Shown in pieces: positions 5,183-20,387 of a stretch of DNA of 20,387 nt. Both the position numbers and the translations under genes were made by a program. Origin of the DNA: a virus; the IMG/VR virus record IMGVR_UViG_3300013101_001051, positions 1-20,387 of that record. One strand, given 5' to 3'. A model generated the notes under the pieces. It was not told the DNA's origin. It was given only the letters and a program-made list of their open reading frames with translations, and searched no databases. Position 1 is the first letter of the stretch, and every line of letters begins with the position of its first letter.

Positions 5183-6685
5183 ATGACGTATACTCTAGAC
5201 ACTTACTTTAAAAAGGCTGGACTGAAAAACCCAGTAGCATTTGCACCGTTCATTACGATGAACCCGGAAAAGATACCTATGGAGCATCAGGTCAGTGGGC
5301 TGAACAGGCTGCTGACCAACGAGTACTGGGGGCTGTATGACCAGCCGGGAACCGGCAAGACGCTTACCAGCCACGCATTCTTCCTGTACTGGGTGAGCGA
5401 GGGGCAGCGTACTATCGCAGTGATGCCCCCCAACCTTGTGTACCAGTTCGAGGAGGAGTTGTACGATGTGTATCAGGGGGCAGAGAAGTACGTTGCCAGT
5501 CACATACTGGACGACTCTCCTGCTAAACGTAAGAAACTGTACGCCCAGTGGAGAGAGAACGATAGCTGGCCCCAACTCCTGTGCATGTCGTACCAGATGT
5601 TCAGCAGGGAGTGGGAGAAGTGGAGCAAAGTTTACCGAGTCGGCATCTTCGACGAGGCACAGGCCTTGAAGAATTCCAACTCCGGGTTCTTTAAGCATGT
5701 CCACGAGTGGCAGCACCAGAAGGGAGGCACCTCTTCCACATTCATGACTGGTACCCCGACACATAACGAGTTGATCGACACCTACTCCCTGATAGAGTTA
5801 ACTGACCCCGGCGCGTACTTCAGTCTGAAGACTTTCGACAAGATCCACTGCGTGTACAAGAGGGTGCCACTGAAGAAGCCGCGCAGGATGAAGAACGGAG
5901 GATGGCAGAAGTCATTCACAGTTCGGACGGGGTACAAGGCGGTCCCTGATATCTCCAAGGCGCTGTACAAACGTGCCAGCAGGACGCTGAAGAAAGATGT
6001 GATCGAGATTAAAGACCCGACGATTACAGAGGTGGCAGTGAAACTGGAGGCGGGGCACCTCAGGCTATACAAGAAGCTAGTGAAGGAGAGGCTGCTGGAA
6101 GTGGGTGATGAGATGATCATTGCTGATAACGCTCAGGCTTTGCGCCAGAAGTGTTTGCAGATTGTCACCTGCCCGGAGTTGTACATTGAGGAGATGAAGT
6201 TTAAAAATAATGTAGTGATGGCCATTCAGGAAATAATTGACGGGATGGATATCGAGAAGTCGAAGGTAATAATCTTCGTCAACTATCAAGACTCAGTACG
6301 AAACCTAGATTCCTATTTTTCCAAGTTTAATCCGGCGCTCATGTACGGTGCCTCAAACACGGAGAAAAATCGTCAGAAATTCTTGAAGGATGATACCTGC
6401 CGACTACTCATCGCTAACCCCAAGTCAGCAGGCGCAGGCTTTAACTTTCAAAGCGTCTGCCACACAATTATATTCGGGGAGCCTACCGGAGTGCCGGGGG
6501 ACTTCAAGCAGGCAATGGATAGAGTCCACCGCAGTGGGCAACGCAACCTAGTGAACATCTGGATCATCAAAGCACTTGGAACCATCTCCCCCAAAGCGAC
6601 AGAGGAAATGCTGCGCAAGGAAGGGGAAGCTCAACAAGTTTACAAAGACAGACATACGTTCCTGTCTGAATTTAAAGCCGCATAG
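5183..6685 (+). CDS. SNF2/SF2-type DNA helicase (500 aa)
   Basis: The 500-residue protein has the complete motif set of a small phage SNF2-like SF2 ATPase: the Q-like element MEHQVSGLNRLL, Walker A DQPGTGKT (53-60, K59), DEAQ box FDEAQALKN (D157-Q160), motif III MTGTPTHN, motif V GAGFNFQ, and motif VI DRVHRSGQR (H449-R454). The HRSGQ form with a DEAQ box is characteristic of SNF2/RapA-like translocases. Its likely role is ATP-driven remodelling at the fork or during recombination. The SD is the TAGGAGG created by the stop codon of the primase gene, with ATG 7 nt on, so the two are coupled. It is followed by the 6696 gene through a second TAGGAGG. Lengths around 450-550 residues are usual for phage members. 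Family assignment is strong; the exact role is inferred. Confidence 0.9.
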   Translation: MTYTLDTYFKKAGLKNPVAFAPFITMNPEKIPMEHQVSGLNRLLTNEYWGLYDQPGTGKTLTSHAFFLYWVSEGQRTIAVMPPNLVYQFEEELYDVYQGAEKYVASHILDDSPAKRKKLYAQWRENDSWPQLLCMSYQMFSREWEKWSKVYRVGIFDEAQALKNSNSGFFKHVHEWQHQKGGTSSTFMTGTPTHNELIDTYSLIELTDPGAYFSLKTFDKIHCVYKRVPLKKPRRMKNGGWQKSFTVRTGYKAVPDISKALYKRASRTLKKDVIEIKDPTITEVAVKLEAGHLRLYKKLVKERLLEVGDEMIIADNAQALRQKCLQIVTCPELYIEEMKFKNNVVMAIQEIIDGMDIEKSKVIIFVNYQDSVRNLDSYFSKFNPALMYGASNTEKNRQKFLKDDTCRLLIANPKSAGAGFNFQSVCHTIIFGEPTGVPGDFKQAMDRVHRSGQRNLVNIWIIKALGTISPKATEEMLRKEGEAQQVYKDRHTFLSEFKAA

Positions 6686-6695
6686 GAGGCAACCA

Positions 6696-7169
6696 ATGTT
6701 TGAATTTAATTTAGGTACTTTCGTTACTGACAAATCAACAGGGTTCTGTGGAGTCATTATCGGTCGGGTGAGGTGGAACTCTGGAGCTATCCAGTACTCT
6801 GTCCAACCCCCAGTAAAGGAGGGGGAGACATCTATGCCAGACTCCATTTGGATTGACGGAGACTACTTCGAGGTCGACGAAGAAAGAGGAGTAGCCTCTG
6901 CATGGGGAGCCCCTGACTTCTTGTTTGATCTCGGGACAAAAGTAAAATCTATCCACACTCCCTTGGTAGGGTACGTCACTGGACAGTGTCAGTGCCTGAA
7001 CGGATGCCTTCGCTACACCGTAACCAGCAACACCTTGCACGAAGGGAACAAGGTAGTCTCTTGGTTTGATGAGACCTCTATTGAGTCGTTAAACAAATCG
7101 ATTTCACAAGAGGAGCGTACCTCTGGCGGCCCCTCCTCCAGTTCCAGAGGGGCGATGCAGCAATGCTAA
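6696..7169 (+). CDS. Hypothetical phage protein (157 aa)
   Basis: I chose the ATG at 6696 because it follows TAGGAGGCAACCA (SD overlapping the SNF2 stop); the frame is open further upstream but only inside the helicase gene. The 157-residue product contains two similar beta-rich segments: LGTFVTDKSTGFCGVIIGRVRW...IQYSVQPPVKEG and LGTKVKSIHTPLVGYVTGQCQC..LRYTVTSNTLHEG. Each has the pattern LGTxV-x(5-9)-G-x-V/I-x-G-x(6-11)-Y-x-V, so the protein looks like a tandem duplication of a small KOW/SH3-like beta-barrel, ending in a low-complexity serine-rich tail (SGGPSSSSRG). Phage proteins of this type are annotated as hypothetical. Its stop overlaps the ATG of the 58-residue gene. The duplication is visible by eye; the fold name is inference. 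Confidence 0.75.
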   Translation: MFEFNLGTFVTDKSTGFCGVIIGRVRWNSGAIQYSVQPPVKEGETSMPDSIWIDGDYFEVDEERGVASAWGAPDFLFDLGTKVKSIHTPLVGYVTGQCQCLNGCLRYTVTSNTLHEGNKVVSWFDETSIESLNKSISQEERTSGGPSSSSRGAMQQC

Positions 7170-7339
7170 ACAAAGAGATGAACTTAGAATCCATCTTCAC
7201 CTTTGGAGCGCACAAAGGAAAGCAGTTGGAGGATGTAATCCACGACGACCCCAGCTACATAGAGTGGATGATTATGGAGCGTGTGTCAGAGTTTGACGAC
7301 GAGGCTCTTGAACTTATAACGAAGGAGGGTATAGCATGA
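7163..7339 (+). CDS. Stand-alone ExoX C-terminal-like small protein (58 aa)
   Basis: This short ORF has ATG at 7163 overlapping the previous stop by 7 nt, with the purine-rich GAGGGG upstream, and TGA at 7337-7339 overlapping the ThyX ATG. The 58 residues include FTFGAHKGKQLEDV and DDPSYIEWMI, the hallmark F-x-FGxHKGKxLxxV...D-x-x-YxxWM pattern of the ExoX C-terminal/DUF3820-like domain, found at the end of exonuclease X and as small stand-alone phage and bacterial proteins. The role of that domain is not settled; nucleic-acid or partner binding is plausible. The tight overlap on both sides argues for a real, translated gene in the replication operon. Confidence 0.75.
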   Translation: MLNKEMNLESIFTFGAHKGKQLEDVIHDDPSYIEWMIMERVSEFDDEALELITKEGIA

Positions 7340-8010
7340 TAGAACTTTTAGATCACGGACACGTAAGACTGGTTGACCACATGGGTTCCGACCTGTCCAT
7401 TGTTAGAAATGCTCGTTGTAGTTACAACGCAGAGTGGAAGGCTGGAGACGACGAAGGAAGTGACTCCCGCCTGATAAACTACCTCTACAAGAACGGGCAC
7501 AACACCCCGTTTGAAGCGGTGGTGTTCACCTTTGACGTGAAGGCTCCCATCTTCGTGTTCAGGCAGTGGCACCGTCACCGCACCCAAAGCTACAACGAGG
7601 TGAGCGCACGGTACACCGAATTGCCCGAAGAATTCTACGTCCCAAAACCTGAACACATCGGTACGCAGTCGAAAGACAATAAGCAAATGCGGGACATGAA
7701 CAGAGAGGTGGACGATTATCTTTTAGGTGCTGTAGGGGTGATGAGAAAGCACAATGAACGGGCATTTCAACATTACCGCGAGCTTATAACAGTCGGAGTC
7801 CCCAGAGAGCTGGCCCGATCAGTTCTCCCTGTCGCCACCTACTCTCACATGTTCGCAACGATGAACCTGCACAATCTGTTCGGGTTCTTGAGGGAGAGGT
7901 TGCACGAGCATGCTCAGTATGAGATCAGAGTGTACGCCCAAGCAATGCTAGAACTGATTGAACCAATCGTACCTGTTGCGGTAGAGGTGTTCAGAAAGGA
8001 GAGGGTATGA
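7336..8010 (+). CDS. thyX: Flavin-dependent thymidylate synthase ThyX (224 aa)
   Basis: ThyX makes dTMP from dUMP using methylene-tetrahydrofolate with FAD and NADPH, supplying thymidine nucleotide for phage DNA synthesis. The signature RHRTQSYNEVSARY (R80-Y93) matches the family RHR-x7-S motif with the catalytic-site serine S90 in place, and HNTPFEAVVFTFDVKAPIFVFRQWH just before it is typical of the FAD/dUMP site. The C-terminal ARSVLPVATYSHMFATMNLHNLFGFLR helix block, with an arginine near the substrate, also matches. Length 224 is normal. ATG at 7336 follows AAGGAGGGT and overlaps the previous stop; the gene overlaps the next start (ATGA at 8007). No active-site substitution is seen, so a normal thymidylate synthase activity is expected. 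Confidence 0.95.
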   Translation: MIELLDHGHVRLVDHMGSDLSIVRNARCSYNAEWKAGDDEGSDSRLINYLYKNGHNTPFEAVVFTFDVKAPIFVFRQWHRHRTQSYNEVSARYTELPEEFYVPKPEHIGTQSKDNKQMRDMNREVDDYLLGAVGVMRKHNERAFQHYRELITVGVPRELARSVLPVATYSHMFATMNLHNLFGFLRERLHEHAQYEIRVYAQAMLELIEPIVPVAVEVFRKERV

Positions 8011-8414
8011 ATCGTAGAGGATTTCTCAAGAGGTTGATGGCAGCAGCAGTCGCTGCCAATATTCCTGCAGGTACCAAGAAGCTTTTGGGGATTATGTTCC
8101 CAGAGGCTGGGCTTCCCGAAGCAGCGTTGGTGCCGGGGAAGCGGCACCGCATCTGCATAACAAGAAATGCTGGAGTTACCAGTAGTTATGTGGACGGACT
8201 TCAAGTATCTAAGATTAGCGACGACGTGCTGAAGTTTACCTACGAAAACGAAAATGCTGAGGAGAGGCTTGCTGGCAGTATTGAGTTAAAGACTGGTAGC
8301 ACCTCGTTAGACATGCCGGAGATGGAGGCTAACCTTGATGGGGACTTCACTTTTGAAATGGATATTCGCCCAGCGGAAGGTGAAGTCGACACAAGGTTAG
8401 ATAATTTTATTTAG
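8007..8414 (+). CDS. Small exported protein with twin-arginine (Tat) signal, LamG-like fragment (135 aa)
   Basis: ATG at 8007 overlaps the ThyX stop and follows GGAGAGGG. The N-terminus MNRRGFLKRLMAAAVAANIP is a textbook twin-arginine signal: N-R-R-G-F-L-K followed by an alanine-rich hydrophobic stretch. The mature part includes RHRICITRNAGVTSSYVDG, resembling the WHHxAxTR...xYxDG strand pair of LamG/concanavalin-A-like domains, and later DGDFTFEMDIRP, resembling the DFTxExW strand that normally comes first in such domains. So it may be a shortened or circularly permuted lectin-like fold. It would be exported folded by the host Tat system if the signal works. Its location between ThyX and replication genes is unexpected. 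The Tat motif is visible; LamG relationship is tentative. Confidence 0.7.
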   Translation: MNRRGFLKRLMAAAVAANIPAGTKKLLGIMFPEAGLPEAALVPGKRHRICITRNAGVTSSYVDGLQVSKISDDVLKFTYENENAEERLAGSIELKTGSTSLDMPEMEANLDGDFTFEMDIRPAEGEVDTRLDNFI

Positions 8415-8433
8415 CCTAAAGAATTGAGCAAAA

Positions 8434-8466
8434 CTTGTTGACTCATCGGGTCGACAAGAGTAGCTT
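8434..8466 (+). promoter_or_regulatory. Stem-loop and weak sigma70-like promoter candidate before 8525
   Basis: CTTGTTGAC (8434-8442) pairs with GTCGACAAG (8450-8458), nine positions with one G-U, around a 7-nt loop. Overlapping it, TTGACT (8438-8443) lies exactly 17 nt before TAGCTT (8461-8466), a good -35 but poor -10. The 110-bp gap before 8525 is the longest in the replication cluster, which supports a separate control region. The promoter is uncertain. Confidence 0.35.
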
Positions 8467-8524
8467 AATCAATGCCCGAAAGGGAACACTGGAGTAAAAC
8501 TTAAACTTGAAAAGGAGAATGCCA

Positions 8525-9262
8525 ATGGCACTTTCAAAGAAGAATGAAGCTACGCCTGAAGTAACTGAAACTGAAACTGAAACACCTGCCGCTGTTGAAG
8601 AGGTAGTCGAAACGGAATCAGTCCTCGAAGAAGACACTCCACCCGAAGCAGCTCCCGTAGAATCCCAAGCAGTCTCAACCGCAACTGACCAACCCCCAGC
8701 TGTCACCTCCCAACAGGAAGGTGTGCTCGGTCACTTGCAAAGCAAAGGTTTCGGCGGTCTGACTCTCGACTGGACTTCCTTCCCCACCATCGTGCTCGAC
8801 AACGGCGAGTTCTGCACAGCAGACGGAAACCCTCTGGATACTAAAGAGATTACCGTTCGCCTGAGCCAATCTCGCAAGCGTTATGTGCTCCGCACTGACG
8901 CGGCTAAGGACGAAGATGCTGAGCTGGCCTACACCTATGACATAGGTGAGCTGGCTGACCCGGAATCTGAACTGGCTGTGAAGGTGCGCACTTGGCGGGA
9001 AGAGGATGACATCGGCTTCAAAGTTAAGGAGTATATCGAGGCGTTAGCCATCGTACAGGACGAGGAGCTTGAGCTTCACCAGAACATGGTGCTGCTGCAA
9101 GTCCCGCCCACCTCCTGTGGCCGTTTCTCAGGTTACCTCACCGAGTTGGAATTGATTCACAACATTAATCCAACTCAATGTCTTACCACCTGTTACGCCG
9201 GTAAGAAAATCACCAAGGCTGTGAAGCCCTTCGTTCCTTGGTCTTTTAAAAAGGCTGACTAG
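8525..9262 (+). CDS. Unrecognised protein with acidic N-terminus, candidate ssDNA-binding protein (245 aa)
   Basis: ATG at 8525 is chosen because AAGGAG (8512-8517) precedes it at normal spacing with the CCAATGG context used by neighbours; a TTG (8507) and an ATG (8519) in the same frame are less likely. The first 65 or so residues are low-complexity, rich in Glu, Thr, Pro, Val and Ala. The remainder is a folded domain with beta-like segments (KEITVRLSQSRKRYVLRTD, LAYTYDIGELADP, MVLLQVPPTSCGRFSGYL) and a basic end (GKKITKAVKPFVPWSFKKAD). I do not recognise a family. Replication cluster position, its own bounded transcription unit and strong terminator suggest an abundant protein such as a single-stranded DNA-binding or recombination mediator protein. 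That role is inference; unlike typical SSBs, the acidic segment is N-terminal. Confidence 0.7.
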   Translation: MALSKKNEATPEVTETETETPAAVEEVVETESVLEEDTPPEAAPVESQAVSTATDQPPAVTSQQEGVLGHLQSKGFGGLTLDWTSFPTIVLDNGEFCTADGNPLDTKEITVRLSQSRKRYVLRTDAAKDEDAELAYTYDIGELADPESELAVKVRTWREEDDIGFKVKEYIEALAIVQDEELELHQNMVLLQVPPTSCGRFSGYLTELELIHNINPTQCLTTCYAGKKITKAVKPFVPWSFKKAD

Positions 9263-9270
9263 TAAGACCT

Positions 9271-9307
9271 GAAGCTGGTCGGGGGATTATCTTTCCCGAC
9301 CAGCTTC
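9271..9307 (+). terminator. Strong terminator-like hairpin (13-bp perfect stem)
   Basis: GAAGCTGGTCGGG (9271-9283) pairs perfectly with CCCGACCAGCTTC (9295-9307) around an 11-nt loop, starting 9 nt after the stop of the 8525 gene. The downstream CTTCTATTT is only moderately T-rich, so termination may be partial. It isolates the 8525 gene from the exonuclease/polymerase gene that follows. Confidence 0.75.
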
Positions 9308-9339
9308 AACCCTTCTATTTAAAAATCTGAGGTACTCCC

Positions 9340-9996
9340 ATGACTAGACCAAAAGTTATTTTGGATTCTAAGGGTTTGCTCACCCAAATGTTTTACCGGG
9401 GGCAAGATCCTAAAGCAATTCTAACCAAGTGCGGCAAGCGAATTAACACTGCTGGCTGGGGATTCGACAACTGGATGGAAGAGTATTTGATGCCCATCCT
9501 TAAAGTGTATCGCACTAGCGATATTATCGCGGTGTGGGACGGAGGTAACGAGTACCGCAAGTCCCTGCATCCCGGCTACAAGAAGAAGCGACACGAGGCC
9601 AGCGAGAAGGCTCCTATAGAGGAAAAGCAGCAGAGGAAGCTGCTGGAGAACGCGATCAAAGTGTTCCTCGCCAACATCGGAGTGGTTAACGTGCAGGCTG
9701 ACGGGGTAGAGGCTGACGACGTTATCGCTACCATCTGCAGAGCGCATCCTGACGAAAAGAAAGTCATTCACACTGGAGACGCTGACATGCTCCAACTGGA
9801 TGACGAGAACACTTACGTCTACTTGCGCAACACCCCTATCAAGGGGGAGCATCAAGGCATCCCGCTCAACATGACAAGGTTGAACAAGTGTTTGGTCGGT
9901 GACAAGTCACGAGTACATTGGTGTGCTGCGCTTCGGGGAGAAGGCGTGGAAGGCTATGGTAGCCGAGTATGGTTACGACGGTCTGGCAGAGATTGA
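9340..9996 (+). CDS. 5'-3' exonuclease domain of a Pol I-like protein, frame broken after residue 190 (218 aa as read)
   Basis: ATG at 9340 follows GAGG with a 7-nt spacer. Residues 1-190 match the FEN-like 5'-3' exonuclease family: an N-terminal metal aspartate in VILDSKG (D9), VWDGGNEYRKSLHPGYKKKR (D67 and the Y-x-x-x-R clamp region), GVEADDVIATI (D126, D127), HTGDADMLQL (D147, D149) and VGDKS (186-190), the start of the GDxSDNIxG helix-hairpin element. At that point homology stops in this frame and the last 28 residues look like an unrelated read-through ending at a TGA. The expected continuation (EYIGVLRFGEKAWKAMVAEYG) is encoded in the +1 frame at the start of the polymerase ORF. So this is the N-terminal part of a fused exonuclease-polymerase. 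As read alone, it lacks the last catalytic aspartate and the K+-binding hairpin. Confidence 0.8.
   Translation: MTRPKVILDSKGLLTQMFYRGQDPKAILTKCGKRINTAGWGFDNWMEEYLMPILKVYRTSDIIAVWDGGNEYRKSLHPGYKKKRHEASEKAPIEEKQQRKLLENAIKVFLANIGVVNVQADGVEADDVIATICRAHPDEKKVIHTGDADMLQLDDENTYVYLRNTPIKGEHQGIPLNMTRLNKCLVGDKSRVHWCAALRGEGVEGYGSRVWLRRSGRD
9898..9916 (+). other. Site of reading-frame change between exonuclease and polymerase
   Basis: Frame of 9340 reads G-D-K-S through TCA at 9907-9909; the family continuation E-Y-I-G is read in the +1 frame from GAG at 9911. Skipping one base (C9910), or restoring two bases, would join the two ORFs into a protein of about 1175 residues. The +1 frame is open only from 9884 (TGA at 9881-9883), so the switch must lie between 9884 and the TGA at 9994-9996, and conservation narrows it to about 9904-9914. 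No Shine-Dalgarno is present for a separate polymerase start here. Confidence 0.75.
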
Positions 9997-12868
9997 GAAG
10001 TGCATTGCCAGTAAGGACTGGGCTGCTGTTGAGGAGTCTTTGGAAGAGAATCCTGAAAAAACATTACGACATGTGTACGACAACAGGAAGGATGCGCAGA
10101 AGTTTTACAAGGTTGCCACCCTCAACCCTGACATCTGCTACGGGTTTCGTGGTAGCAAGTTGATCTGGCCTGTCTATTACGTCCGGTTACCGACCCGCTC
10201 AAAGGTCATCAACGTGTTGGACGAGATGTACTGCGCCAAGTACCTTGAAGATCTTGAATACCTGTTCCCGACAGAGACGCTGGTCACAGCTGAAAACTTT
10301 GACGAGGTGTCCCGGCATTTCACCGAACATCTACCAATGACTCCCTGCGTGTCGTTTGACTACGAGACGGTAGATACTTTGAAGAGTGAGGAATTCAATG
10401 CGGCCATGCCAAAGGGCAAGGGAAACTACGTTGATGTGATCAGCTCTAGGATCACCGGCTGCTCTCTCAACTACGGACCTGACCTGCAGTACACCATCTA
10501 CATCCCCACCCTGCACAAAGAGACTTACAGCTGTGACCCTTCGACTATCAGGGGGTACCTGAAGGAAGTGGAACGAGCAGAAGTTCCTCTAATCGCCCAC
10601 AACAATTCGTTCGAGCTATTGGTGTCGGACTTGAATTTAGATTACCGCCCAGAGAAGCCTTACGACACCATGATCATGGCATCCTATGTCAACGAGAATG
10701 AGTTGAAGGGTTTGAAGCCATTGTCGGAGAGAGTTTTCCGCTACCAGCAAACCAGCTACAAGGAGGTGCTGGAAGCTGCCGGAGCTAATGACATGTCGGA
10801 GCTTACTGGGGAGCAGGTGTTGTCCTACGGCTGTGACGACTCGTTAATCACAGGACGCCTGTTTGGTTTGTTCAAGCTTACCCTGAAGATGGAAGGCATG
10901 TGGGACTTCTATGATCAGAAGGAACGTGCCCCAGTCCACGTACTGAACCATGCGTTTGATACTGGAGTTAGAATAGATTACGCCAAGGTGGACGAGCTGC
11001 ATAAGGAAGCCGACGTTATTATTGAAGAGGGTATGCTGCGTGTCCGAGAAATTCTGGGGGAGCGCTGTCTGGAGCCAAGCCCGGACGCTGCTGCCCACCT
11101 TGATGAGATGGACGGCTCCAACCTGACTGCCATTCTCAGCTACAAGGCCAGCAAAAAAGGTGACAAAGCCCCTACTGACGACGCTCTTCTAGCCAAGAAG
11201 CAGGAGAGGCTGTTCCACTGGGAGGAGGCGGCAGTATACGAGCCGTATGCTGAAACCTACTTCCCCCCTACGTTCCTCGGCACCCACACGCAGTTGAATA
11301 TTGTGGCTGAGGGGCTTGGACTTGATATGGAAGTCCTTAAGCTGCCGTCTAACTCCAAGAAGCAGATCAACATTTTTCTTACCAACGTGAGGCAGTTAAA
11401 TTATGGGGAGGAGGCTGTAGTTTTCGCCCACCTTCTGGGGGAGTCAGCCCACATGATGAAGAAACGTGAAGGTCCAGAGTTTGAAGGTCTGGCAAAATTC
11501 TGTGTCCCCTACCTGGGGGAGGGAAGCCTAGTGAAAGAGGGGGACGAACTAAACTTCAACTCTCCCCTGCAGATGCAGGAACTTATCTATTGCAAGCTTG
11601 GGCTTCCAGTACGGAAGCGCACCAAGGTACAGCGAGACAGTTCCAGAAGTACTTTAGGGCTGGAAGGCTCCCCCTCCTGCGATGAGAAGGGCATGAAAAT
11701 GGCTATCGCGGAGGACTGCCACGGAGAGAATGCGTGGAAGGCTGACGTACTTAACACCGTCATCGACGTGAAGGAACAGAAGACACTGACCTCTCTGTAC
11801 TATAATCCGTACCCACTATGGAAGCACCCACGGGACGGAGTGATACACCCACAGATACGCAATTGCGGCACGGTGACGAGGAGGCCAACAGGAGGTCAAC
11901 CTAACCTGCTGCAGGTTAAGAAGGGGCGCACTCGGACTATCGTACTACCGAGAGAGGATGATCACGTCATCGTAGCTATAGATTTCTCTGGGCAGGAGTT
12001 GAGGATAACAGGATCTGAAGCCAACGACCCTGTGATGATCGATGCCTATACTGGAGGGGGAGTCAGCACTGACGAGTACGGGATGGTTCACCCCGTCTGC
12101 AAAGACATCCACTCGGTCACTGCTATCTCGTTCGCGGAAACTATTTTCCAAAGGGAGCTGAGCACCTCTGATTTTAGTTTCTCTGGGGACCACGCTTATG
12201 GGGCTTTCAGAGACCTTCTGTTTTGTGACGACCCCAAGTTGTCGGCAGCAGCGAACCTGTGTAGGAAGATGGCGAAGGTCGTCAACTTCCTGATCATCTA
12301 CGGAGGGCAGGCCAGCACTCTGGCAATGGGTCTTGGAGTGCCAGAGAAGTTCGCAGAGGAGCTGATGAAACTGGTGTTCCGTACTTACGGCAGGTTGGCT
12401 CCGTGGCAGGATGAGACCATCACCTTCGCCAAGCAGCACGGCTACGTGAAGACCGCCTACGGTAACCTGAAGCACCTGACTGAAGATATCAGAAGTAAGG
12501 ACGGGTCTAGGAGGTCTAGGCAGGAGAGGCAAGCAGTCAACCAGACTGTGCAGGGGTGTGCTGCTGACATCCTGAAGGAAGTACTTACAGCCTCCTACGA
12601 AACCAACATCTGGGAGGAGACCGAGTCAGTTATGATTGCCCCAGTCTACGACGAGATCGTATCCTCTGTCCCTGTCAGCACGGTGTTTGAGTACTGCGGA
12701 AGGATGCAGGAAATTATGAACGTAACTCCTCCCGGACATGCGATCCCCATGATGGCTGAGGTAAGCATCGGGCCGAACTGGGGGAGTGTGGTGGAGCTTG
12801 GAGACAACCCAGCGGAGGTAAAGATTATGGAATGTATTGAATCATTTGAAGGGGAGGTGAGCATATGA
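9899..12868 (+). CDS. Family A DNA polymerase with 3'-5' exonuclease domain (989 aa as read)
   Basis: The frame opens with the helix-hairpin end of the 5'-3' exonuclease, then a 3'-5' exonuclease domain: Exo I SFDYET (D154, E156), Exo II AHNNSFELL (the usual Asp is Glu) and Exo III SYGCDD. The polymerase domain has GTVTRRPTGGQPNLLQV, motif A AIDFSGQELR (D695), motif B RKMAKVVNFLIIYG (R789-G802) and motif C PVYDEIV (D918, E919), where Tyr917 replaces the usual His. It should replicate phage DNA with proofreading. GTG at 9899 is only the first possible start; it has no SD, and no better start with an SD precedes residue 154, so translation probably enters from the 9340 frame. Its stop overlaps the helicase ATG (ATGA). 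Polymerase assignment is certain; the N-terminus is not. Confidence 0.9.
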   Translation: MTSHEYIGVLRFGEKAWKAMVAEYGYDGLAEIEKCIASKDWAAVEESLEENPEKTLRHVYDNRKDAQKFYKVATLNPDICYGFRGSKLIWPVYYVRLPTRSKVINVLDEMYCAKYLEDLEYLFPTETLVTAENFDEVSRHFTEHLPMTPCVSFDYETVDTLKSEEFNAAMPKGKGNYVDVISSRITGCSLNYGPDLQYTIYIPTLHKETYSCDPSTIRGYLKEVERAEVPLIAHNNSFELLVSDLNLDYRPEKPYDTMIMASYVNENELKGLKPLSERVFRYQQTSYKEVLEAAGANDMSELTGEQVLSYGCDDSLITGRLFGLFKLTLKMEGMWDFYDQKERAPVHVLNHAFDTGVRIDYAKVDELHKEADVIIEEGMLRVREILGERCLEPSPDAAAHLDEMDGSNLTAILSYKASKKGDKAPTDDALLAKKQERLFHWEEAAVYEPYAETYFPPTFLGTHTQLNIVAEGLGLDMEVLKLPSNSKKQINIFLTNVRQLNYGEEAVVFAHLLGESAHMMKKREGPEFEGLAKFCVPYLGEGSLVKEGDELNFNSPLQMQELIYCKLGLPVRKRTKVQRDSSRSTLGLEGSPSCDEKGMKMAIAEDCHGENAWKADVLNTVIDVKEQKTLTSLYYNPYPLWKHPRDGVIHPQIRNCGTVTRRPTGGQPNLLQVKKGRTRTIVLPREDDHVIVAIDFSGQELRITGSEANDPVMIDAYTGGGVSTDEYGMVHPVCKDIHSVTAISFAETIFQRELSTSDFSFSGDHAYGAFRDLLFCDDPKLSAAANLCRKMAKVVNFLIIYGGQASTLAMGLGVPEKFAEELMKLVFRTYGRLAPWQDETITFAKQHGYVKTAYGNLKHLTEDIRSKDGSRRSRQERQAVNQTVQGCAADILKEVLTASYETNIWEETESVMIAPVYDEIVSSVPVSTVFEYCGRMQEIMNVTPPGHAIPMMAEVSIGPNWGSVVELGDNPAEVKIMECIESFEGEVSI

Positions 12869-18531: not shown

Positions 18532-18923
18532 GAGAAGATTTAGAAAAAGAGATGCAAGATCTAGGGAAGGCAGAGAGGGATCATCCCGCTAGTAGTGCGG
18601 AGGAAGTACCCAACGAACCATTTGCAGCAGAGCCTACCACCATAGAACAGGTGACAGCCATCCTTGAGCAGGCGATAACAGAGATAGGTGGGCGAGCCGC
18701 TCTGTACGACCAGCCAGACGGTGAGGAGTCAATGCCCAAGGTGATCAGAATGTTCAACACGCTCTACGGCAGAGACCTCACCGTAGAGGAGGGCTGGATG
18801 ATGATGGTGCTACTCAAGGCAGTACGCAGCGCCAACGGTGACTACAAGCGAGACAACTACGTAGACCTTGCAGCCTACGCAGCGTTCGCCGGTAAGGCTG
18901 CTAGAGATGATTCTTCGCCTTGA
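18528..18923 (+). CDS. DUF6378-like phage protein (131 aa)
   Basis: ATG at 18528 overlaps the SbcC stop (ATGA). The first 40 or so residues are acidic and low-complexity; the rest contains AITEIGGRAALYDQPDGEESMP, LYGRDLTVEEGWMMMVLLK and DNYVDLAAYAAFAGKAA, which match my memory of the DUF6378 domain (R..xYGdp.e.....n...G..lt.edv..mmvLlKxaR...DN.vDxaGYaala). That domain is widespread in phages and its function is unknown; location next to nucleotide-metabolism genes is usual. It is the last gene of the forward cluster, and its 3' end overlaps the opposing LamG gene by 23 bp. Confidence 0.75.
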   Translation: MREDLEKEMQDLGKAERDHPASSAEEVPNEPFAAEPTTIEQVTAILEQAITEIGGRAALYDQPDGEESMPKVIRMFNTLYGRDLTVEEGWMMMVLLKAVRSANGDYKRDNYVDLAAYAAFAGKAARDDSSP

Positions 18924-20387
18924 AGTCGTACACAGTTTCATTGTCGGGGTAGGCTTCAGTCGGTATGGCAAAGTTTGTAACGTACCTTGCTTGCCCGACG
19001 GTGATTCTGCAGTCATCAAGGTGCCCCTCTATTGAAGCTGCTGCCAGATTTGAAGAATCATTACCCCATATCAGTCCGTTGCTGCCTACGATATAACTAG
19101 CTGTGTCAGGGTTGTAGGTACTCCCTTCTTGAGCCCCATCGATAAATAACCTCGTCGACTCCTGATGGCGAGTTAGAGCTATGTGATGCCAATTAGTATC
19201 TCTAGTGTTGGTGGAAGTTACTATCTGGTCAACTCCTCCAGTATTAAATCTTAAGTAATTCTGAGCGGCTGAAAAGTAAATTACGAAAGCAACTGCAGAG
19301 TTATTGTCAGAGTCAGGTCTTATGTCAAATAAGACCCCGGTGGATGCGTTTGACACACTCTTGAACCAACACTCTATCGTAAAGTCTTCCGTCCCAAAGG
19401 CGGGTACGTCATAAGTTCTTAAGTAGTTAGTTCCATCGGCAACTAGGTAGCTGGAACCCCCCCACTTAAATTCAGCAGTACTTATGTCGGCGGTACCTAC
19501 GATATCCCACGTTACCTCTCCCACCTCATCCAGAGTAAACTGATCGTCGTCAGCCCCCTCAAAGTGCAGCAGGCTGGCAGTGTAGGGGTAGGGGATTTCT
19601 CTCATGTACTGGGACTTTGGCAGTCTGCCGGGAGGTGTGAAATCCGCAGTGTATCTAACAACGCCACTGGTCACCCTGAAGTCCTCAAGGTAACCAGTCA
19701 TAGTGAGACTTCCACCAGTGTACCCGCCAATGGCAAATTCTGTATCAGTGAATGATAGTCCGGGATCGTTATAGGTGCCTAGAGATACTCCATTCAACCA
19801 AAACTTAAAATCTGTTCCGTCATAAGTAAGGGCAACGTGATGCCACGTTACTGCCGCAGGGGGGGTGACAGTTATTCTGGAAGCGCCGTCTGTCCAAAAT
19901 ATTAATTCTGGTCCGGCGGCAGCGTTGTACACCACAAATTCCTGATCAGTCGCAGCTGTATTTGAAAAAAGATATTGGTCACCCACTGTGGCGTCTAGGT
20001 TGAAAAAAGTTTCTATAGTAAAGACAGACCCTAGAGTAAAGGAATCGTAATCTATCCTATCCGCTTCCATCCTGATTGAAGTGTCGACAAATCTACTTAA
20101 TACGTTTGAGTAGGCAGGATCTCCCACAATGTTTGAGGGAGCGTTACCCATTGCGTCAACAAAGGTTGTAGATCCGTCAACCTCCCCCCCTGATAAGAGA
20201 AGTTGAACAGATGGGAAGTTAGAGTCTGCTTCTACAGTCAAATACTCATCCCTGTCCAAGATGTAGTTTTCATCTTCAGCATATCGTGATACTTGCTTGG
20301 TGAATCTCACACGGATAATTTCGCCAAGGAGAGAGCTGCCGGGGGTGGCGTTCCTGTCTGACCCCAGCCTGACACCACCAGTGCCTA
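18901..20387 (-). CDS. LamG/concanavalin A-like domain protein, 5' end outside window
   Basis: The minus-strand frame is open from the right edge to TAG (complement of 18901-18903). A GTG at 20310 is available as a start, but codons upstream remain open (GVRLGSDRNATPGSS...) with no SD, so the gene almost certainly begins beyond the window. Two LamG-like lectin modules are visible: one with FTIETFFNLDA and TWHHVALTYDGTDFKFWLNG, ending DFRVTSGVVRYTADF; the second with DFTIECWFKSV, NWHHIALTRHQESTRLFIDG and DCRITVGQARYVTNF. Such proteins in phages are tail, fibre or capsid-decoration proteins with carbohydrate-binding potential. Opposite orientation marks the border of a structural module. Domain family is confident; virion location is inferred. 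Confidence 0.85.
   Translation of the reverse strand, partial: GTGGVRLGSDRNATPGSSLLGEIIRVRFTKQVSRYAEDENYILDRDEYLTVEADSNFPSVQLLLSGGEVDGSTTFVDAMGNAPSNIVGDPAYSNVLSRFVDTSIRMEADRIDYDSFTLGSVFTIETFFNLDATVGDQYLFSNTAATDQEFVVYNAAAGPELIFWTDGASRITVTPPAAVTWHHVALTYDGTDFKFWLNGVSLGTYNDPGLSFTDTEFAIGGYTGGSLTMTGYLEDFRVTSGVVRYTADFTPPGRLPKSQYMREIPYPYTASLLHFEGADDDQFTLDEVGEVTWDIVGTADISTAEFKWGGSSYLVADGTNYLRTYDVPAFGTEDFTIECWFKSVSNASTGVLFDIRPDSDNNSAVAFVIYFSAAQNYLRFNTGGVDQIVTSTNTRDTNWHHIALTRHQESTRLFIDGAQEGSTYNPDTASYIVGSNGLIWGNDSSNLAAASIEGHLDDCRITVGQARYVTNFAIPTEAYPDNETVYDFKAKNHL

Follow-up and report, generated by a model that had tools for sequence, protein, structure and literature searches.

Two overlapping ORFs on the plus strand of the virus record IMGVR_UViG_3300013101_001051, the whole of which (20,387 bases) is the window analysed here, raise the question of whether a 5'-3' exonuclease and a DNA polymerase are encoded by separate genes, by one gene that is recoded during translation, or by one gene that has been broken. 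The short ORF (9340-9996) encodes 218 aa in the 5'-3' exonuclease frame, and the polymerase-frame ORF (9899-12868) encodes 989 aa in a frame that is open from 9884, such that the two open frames overlap at 9884-9993. A preliminary description of the locus took both ORFs for a single Pol I-like gene with a frame change at about 9910, and offered programmed +1 frameshifting, a real inactivating indel, or a sequencing error as the cause. The evidence set out below favors, with a probability of about 0.87, a single exonuclease-polymerase gene that was broken when two bases were accidentally lost from the codon for an invariant Asp, a metal ligand.

Two frames, one gene

The view that the two ORFs are parts of one gene was borne out by Pfam searches and by tblastn comparison with fused relatives. 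Both domains of a Pol I-like protein are present, an N-terminal 5_3_exonuc_N domain (E=1.8e-21) and a C-terminal DNA_pol_A domain (E=7e-54), and they lie in two frames. The part of the short ORF that matches relatives, a FEN-like N-terminal domain, spans 9340-9909 and has ...LVGDKS as its last residues. The rest of the exonuclease domain (the H3TH region), the linker, the 3'-5' exonuclease and the family A polymerase follow in the +1 frame at 9911-12868. Reading through both parts would yield a product of 190 + 985 residues, in agreement with an earlier estimate of about 1175. The remainder of the short ORF (9910-9996) is an out-of-frame tail of 28 residues, RVHWCAALRGEGVEGYGSRVWLRRSGRD, followed by a stop codon; nothing in the relatives, which match the +1 frame here, corresponds to it, consistent with its description as junk. 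Each frame is conserved on its own side of the change, with 43-45% identity to fused relatives for the exonuclease part up to base 9909 and 33-45% across the full length of the polymerase-frame part. Furthermore, the invariant polymerase residues are kept, the polymerase and 3'-5' exonuclease motifs are intact, and both halves of the gene retain their active-site residues, apart from the Asp of the lesion codon.

In the relatives, a single uninterrupted gene of about 1,190-1,360 residues encodes both activities. An alignment-based scan of IMG/VR returned 33 relatives of full or nearly full length (L009-L041; best 43-45% identity), some of which are the same phages as GenBank entries, and later scans added L047, L051, L061, L071 and L073. 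Both parts occur together in 42 distinct ORFs across all loci, and leaving out L113, a more distant Pol I, gives 41 distinct family members. The frame is continuous in 41/41 of these and changes at 9910 in the window, where the match to relatives breaks off at 9909 and resumes at 9911; at no locus examined were the exonuclease and the polymerase found in separate ORFs.

The single-protein relatives in GenBank are those of phages Lana (1221 aa), PMBT3 (1216), UAntarctica (1218), SHOU24 (1322), K478b (1326), 264E42.1 (1327) and phivp505_B (1364 aa), with 31-35% identity to both parts. The Pseudomonas phages Lana, PMBT3 and UAntarctica and the Vibrio phages SHOU24, K478b and 264E42.1 share the domain order of the window and are 33-35% identical to it across the entire polymerase frame and 31-34% identical across the exonuclease; several also resemble it in having ThyX or SbcD genes close by. 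Unlike the window, all six have one unbroken ORF and an Asp at the site. The closest polymerase relatives found, at 38-45% identity, are the IMG/VR contigs L009-L015, L047, L051 and L061, and some of these (L009, L010, L012, L013 and L015 among others) have primase, helicase, SSB-like, SbcD or SbcC neighbors in common with the window; they too differ from it in having a fused frame and the Asp. The gene belongs to a tailed phage that is kin to the Lana, PMBT3 and SHOU24 phages. A search for closer relatives with the polymerase alone, a search with two degenerate DNA patterns for the lesion site, and a scan of genome contigs for relatives all returned nothing. The nearest kin found is the contig L063 (IMGVR_UViG_3300013101_002016), which encodes a primase 74% identical to that of the window followed by the same helicase gene; this contig is 4.6 kb long and ends before the polymerase gene.

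One relative is unusual in another respect. The polymerase ORF of L033 (IMGVR_UViG_2546826722_000003; 5368-9987, 1539 aa) contains an in-frame insertion of about 319 residues (about 1011-1329) at polymerase motif B, which is not present in the close relative L036. The insertion has intein hallmarks, in that it begins with C-IAEGSMVLTDQGLVPIEFI and ends in VIVHN before C, and it has no intein or homing endonuclease match in Pfam.

The lesion and the missing Asp

The extent of the lesion follows from the alignment of the window with the single protein of L009, in which residues 38-220 match 9355-9909 in frame 1 and residues 222-1215 match 9911-12856 in frame 2 (E about 0 for both). The two pieces abut, and the sole unmatched residue is number 221, which is an Asp, as is the corresponding residue 212 of L010. 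Exactly one residue lies between the matching stretches in 41/41 family members, and it is always Asp. The window keeps one base of this codon, at 9910. Of the two possibilities considered at the outset, a single surplus base or two missing bases, only the second stands, because the relatives hold one extra codon, that of the Asp, at this position. An intron or intein at the lesion is ruled out, as there is no insert and the tblastn stretches abut.

Alignment of a profile HMM of the relatives with the T5 5'-exonuclease and Taq polymerase places the lesion Asp at the last Asp of the GDxxD motif, which by residue count is Asp204 of T5 FEN and Asp191 of Taq. In T5 FEN, the Cat2 metal site is made up of Asp155, 201 and 204, and 5'-3' exonuclease activity needs both metal sites, whereas flap cleavage needs Cat1 only; ExoIX lacks Cat2 entirely (PMC3783174). 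Given that flap cleavage needs Cat1 alone and that ExoIX manages without Cat2, loss of this Asp by itself would not be absurd. It is seen, however, in 0/41 relatives, and the window retains a single base of the codon for this otherwise invariant Cat2 residue.

A probable sequence error or recent mutation

In the proposed course of events, accidental removal of two bases of the Asp codon would have broken the frame at 9910, and nothing was found at the lesion site to restore it. As it stands, the DNA specifies a truncated, 218-residue exonuclease, and the polymerase frame lacks a proper start. By tblastn, the other genes of the window that match relatives each align in one frame, namely those for the 926-aa primase, the 500-aa helicase, ThyX, the SSB-like protein, the 427-aa helicase, SbcD and SbcC. 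With all other comparable genes unbroken, this is therefore a lone indel in about 20 kb. Decay is not seen in either half of the gene: the 30-residue bin that spans the lesion has an identity of 0.47 to eight relatives, versus 0.2-0.7 elsewhere, and GC3 is 0.65 on both sides. Thus, the lesion is either recent or absent from the phage itself, and we infer that the loss was accidental.

Both a real indel and a sequence error, two of the three causes offered earlier, survive these observations. On balance the loss is somewhat more readily attributed to a sequencing or assembly error, although a loss of two bases outside a homopolymer is not the commonest type of short-read error. A real and recent mutation in the sampled phage is possible but less probable; fixing a null mutation in a replicative polymerase would come at a high cost. 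The weighting of error against mutation is a matter of judgement. For annotation, both ORFs should be recorded as one frameshifted exonuclease-polymerase gene, and neither as two genes nor as programmed recoding. Should the lesion prove real in a phage that replicates, it would test whether this family can survive with a Klenow-like polymerase and without a FEN domain.

Other explanations for the two frames

It is improbable, but conceivable, that the split is tolerated, with a truncated exonuclease and a Klenow-like polymerase begun internally, for instance at ATG 9956, and with the FEN activity dispensable or supplied by the host. The intact polymerase and 3'-5' exonuclease motifs would suit such an arrangement, and working split polymerases are known from other phages, gene 43A/43B of Aeromonas phage 25 among them (PMC2988022). 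The split genes of Aeromonas phages 25 and 44RR resemble the window in that the polymerase coding region lies in two ORFs. In contrast to the window, they encode family B enzymes, are split by intercistronic sequence or a homing endonuclease gene, and have a translatable second ORF (PMC2988022), whereas the window has a two-base lesion and no insert. The break coincides with neither a domain boundary nor a mobile-element insertion but lies inside a catalytic codon, and the remainder of the exonuclease domain directly after the lesion is still conserved. As for a start codon, the statement in the preliminary description that the polymerase lacks an SD or sensible start holds for GTG 9899 and GTG 9923, for which an SD scan found no match, but not entirely for the first ATG of the polymerase frame (9956-9958). 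This codon is preceded by a modest SD-like match, GGAGAAGG, of -6.4 kcal/mol, close to some of the real starts in the window, which mostly score -6 to -13 kcal/mol. However, its spacing of 11 is long and the Met is not conserved among relatives, such that this possible internal start is probably incidental.

Programmed frameshifting near 9910, whether +1 or the equivalent -2, would yield a short exonuclease together with a long fusion of exonuclease and polymerase; in its favor, the two open frames overlap and each is conserved on its own side. Sequence features at the site make it very unlikely. The +1 product, ...VGDKS-EYIG..., lacks the Asp that is invariant in 41/41 relatives, and the -2 product has His in its place. 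None of the codons GGT, GAC, AAG and TCA can re-pair in the +1 or -2 frame, and codon inspection of 9898-9912 found no slippery site that would permit tRNA re-pairing, in keeping with the earlier remark that TCA-CGA-G is not an obvious slippery site. A stimulator is lacking as well: there is no stop codon or SD-like stretch ahead of the site, and the downstream fold is unremarkable (z = -1.0). Rfam matches around the lesion are sub-threshold with none at the site, and the window contains no tRNA gene able to suppress the shift. Furthermore, the terminated product would be a FEN without the H3TH region, and conservation of the shift site, a check suggested at the outset, was found in 0/41 relatives, the nearest of which are about 45% identical. 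There is only a slight chance that an exonuclease-polymerase with a modified Cat2 site arises through an unusual, non-slippery programmed frameshift or a hop; if T5 FEN is a guide, such a product could retain flap endonuclease activity but lose 5'-3' exonuclease activity.

A chimera, in which contigs of two phages were misjoined at the conserved GDKS-EY stretch, is exceedingly unlikely, for although the junction falls in a conserved motif, the two sides are alike in their identity to the same relatives (43.5% and 44.6%), in GC3 (0.65 and 0.65) and in gene order.

Two further features of the window lie outside the broken gene. A strong hairpin at 9256-9321, GAAGCTGGTCGGG / CCCGACCAGCTTC, sits between the SSB-like and exonuclease genes and is probably a terminator; an Rfam mir-75 match that overlies it is sub-threshold and spurious. 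On the minus strand, opposite the replication genes, 18901-20310 encodes a protein with two concanavalin-like (Laminin_G_3) domains, which is possibly associated with the virion or tail.
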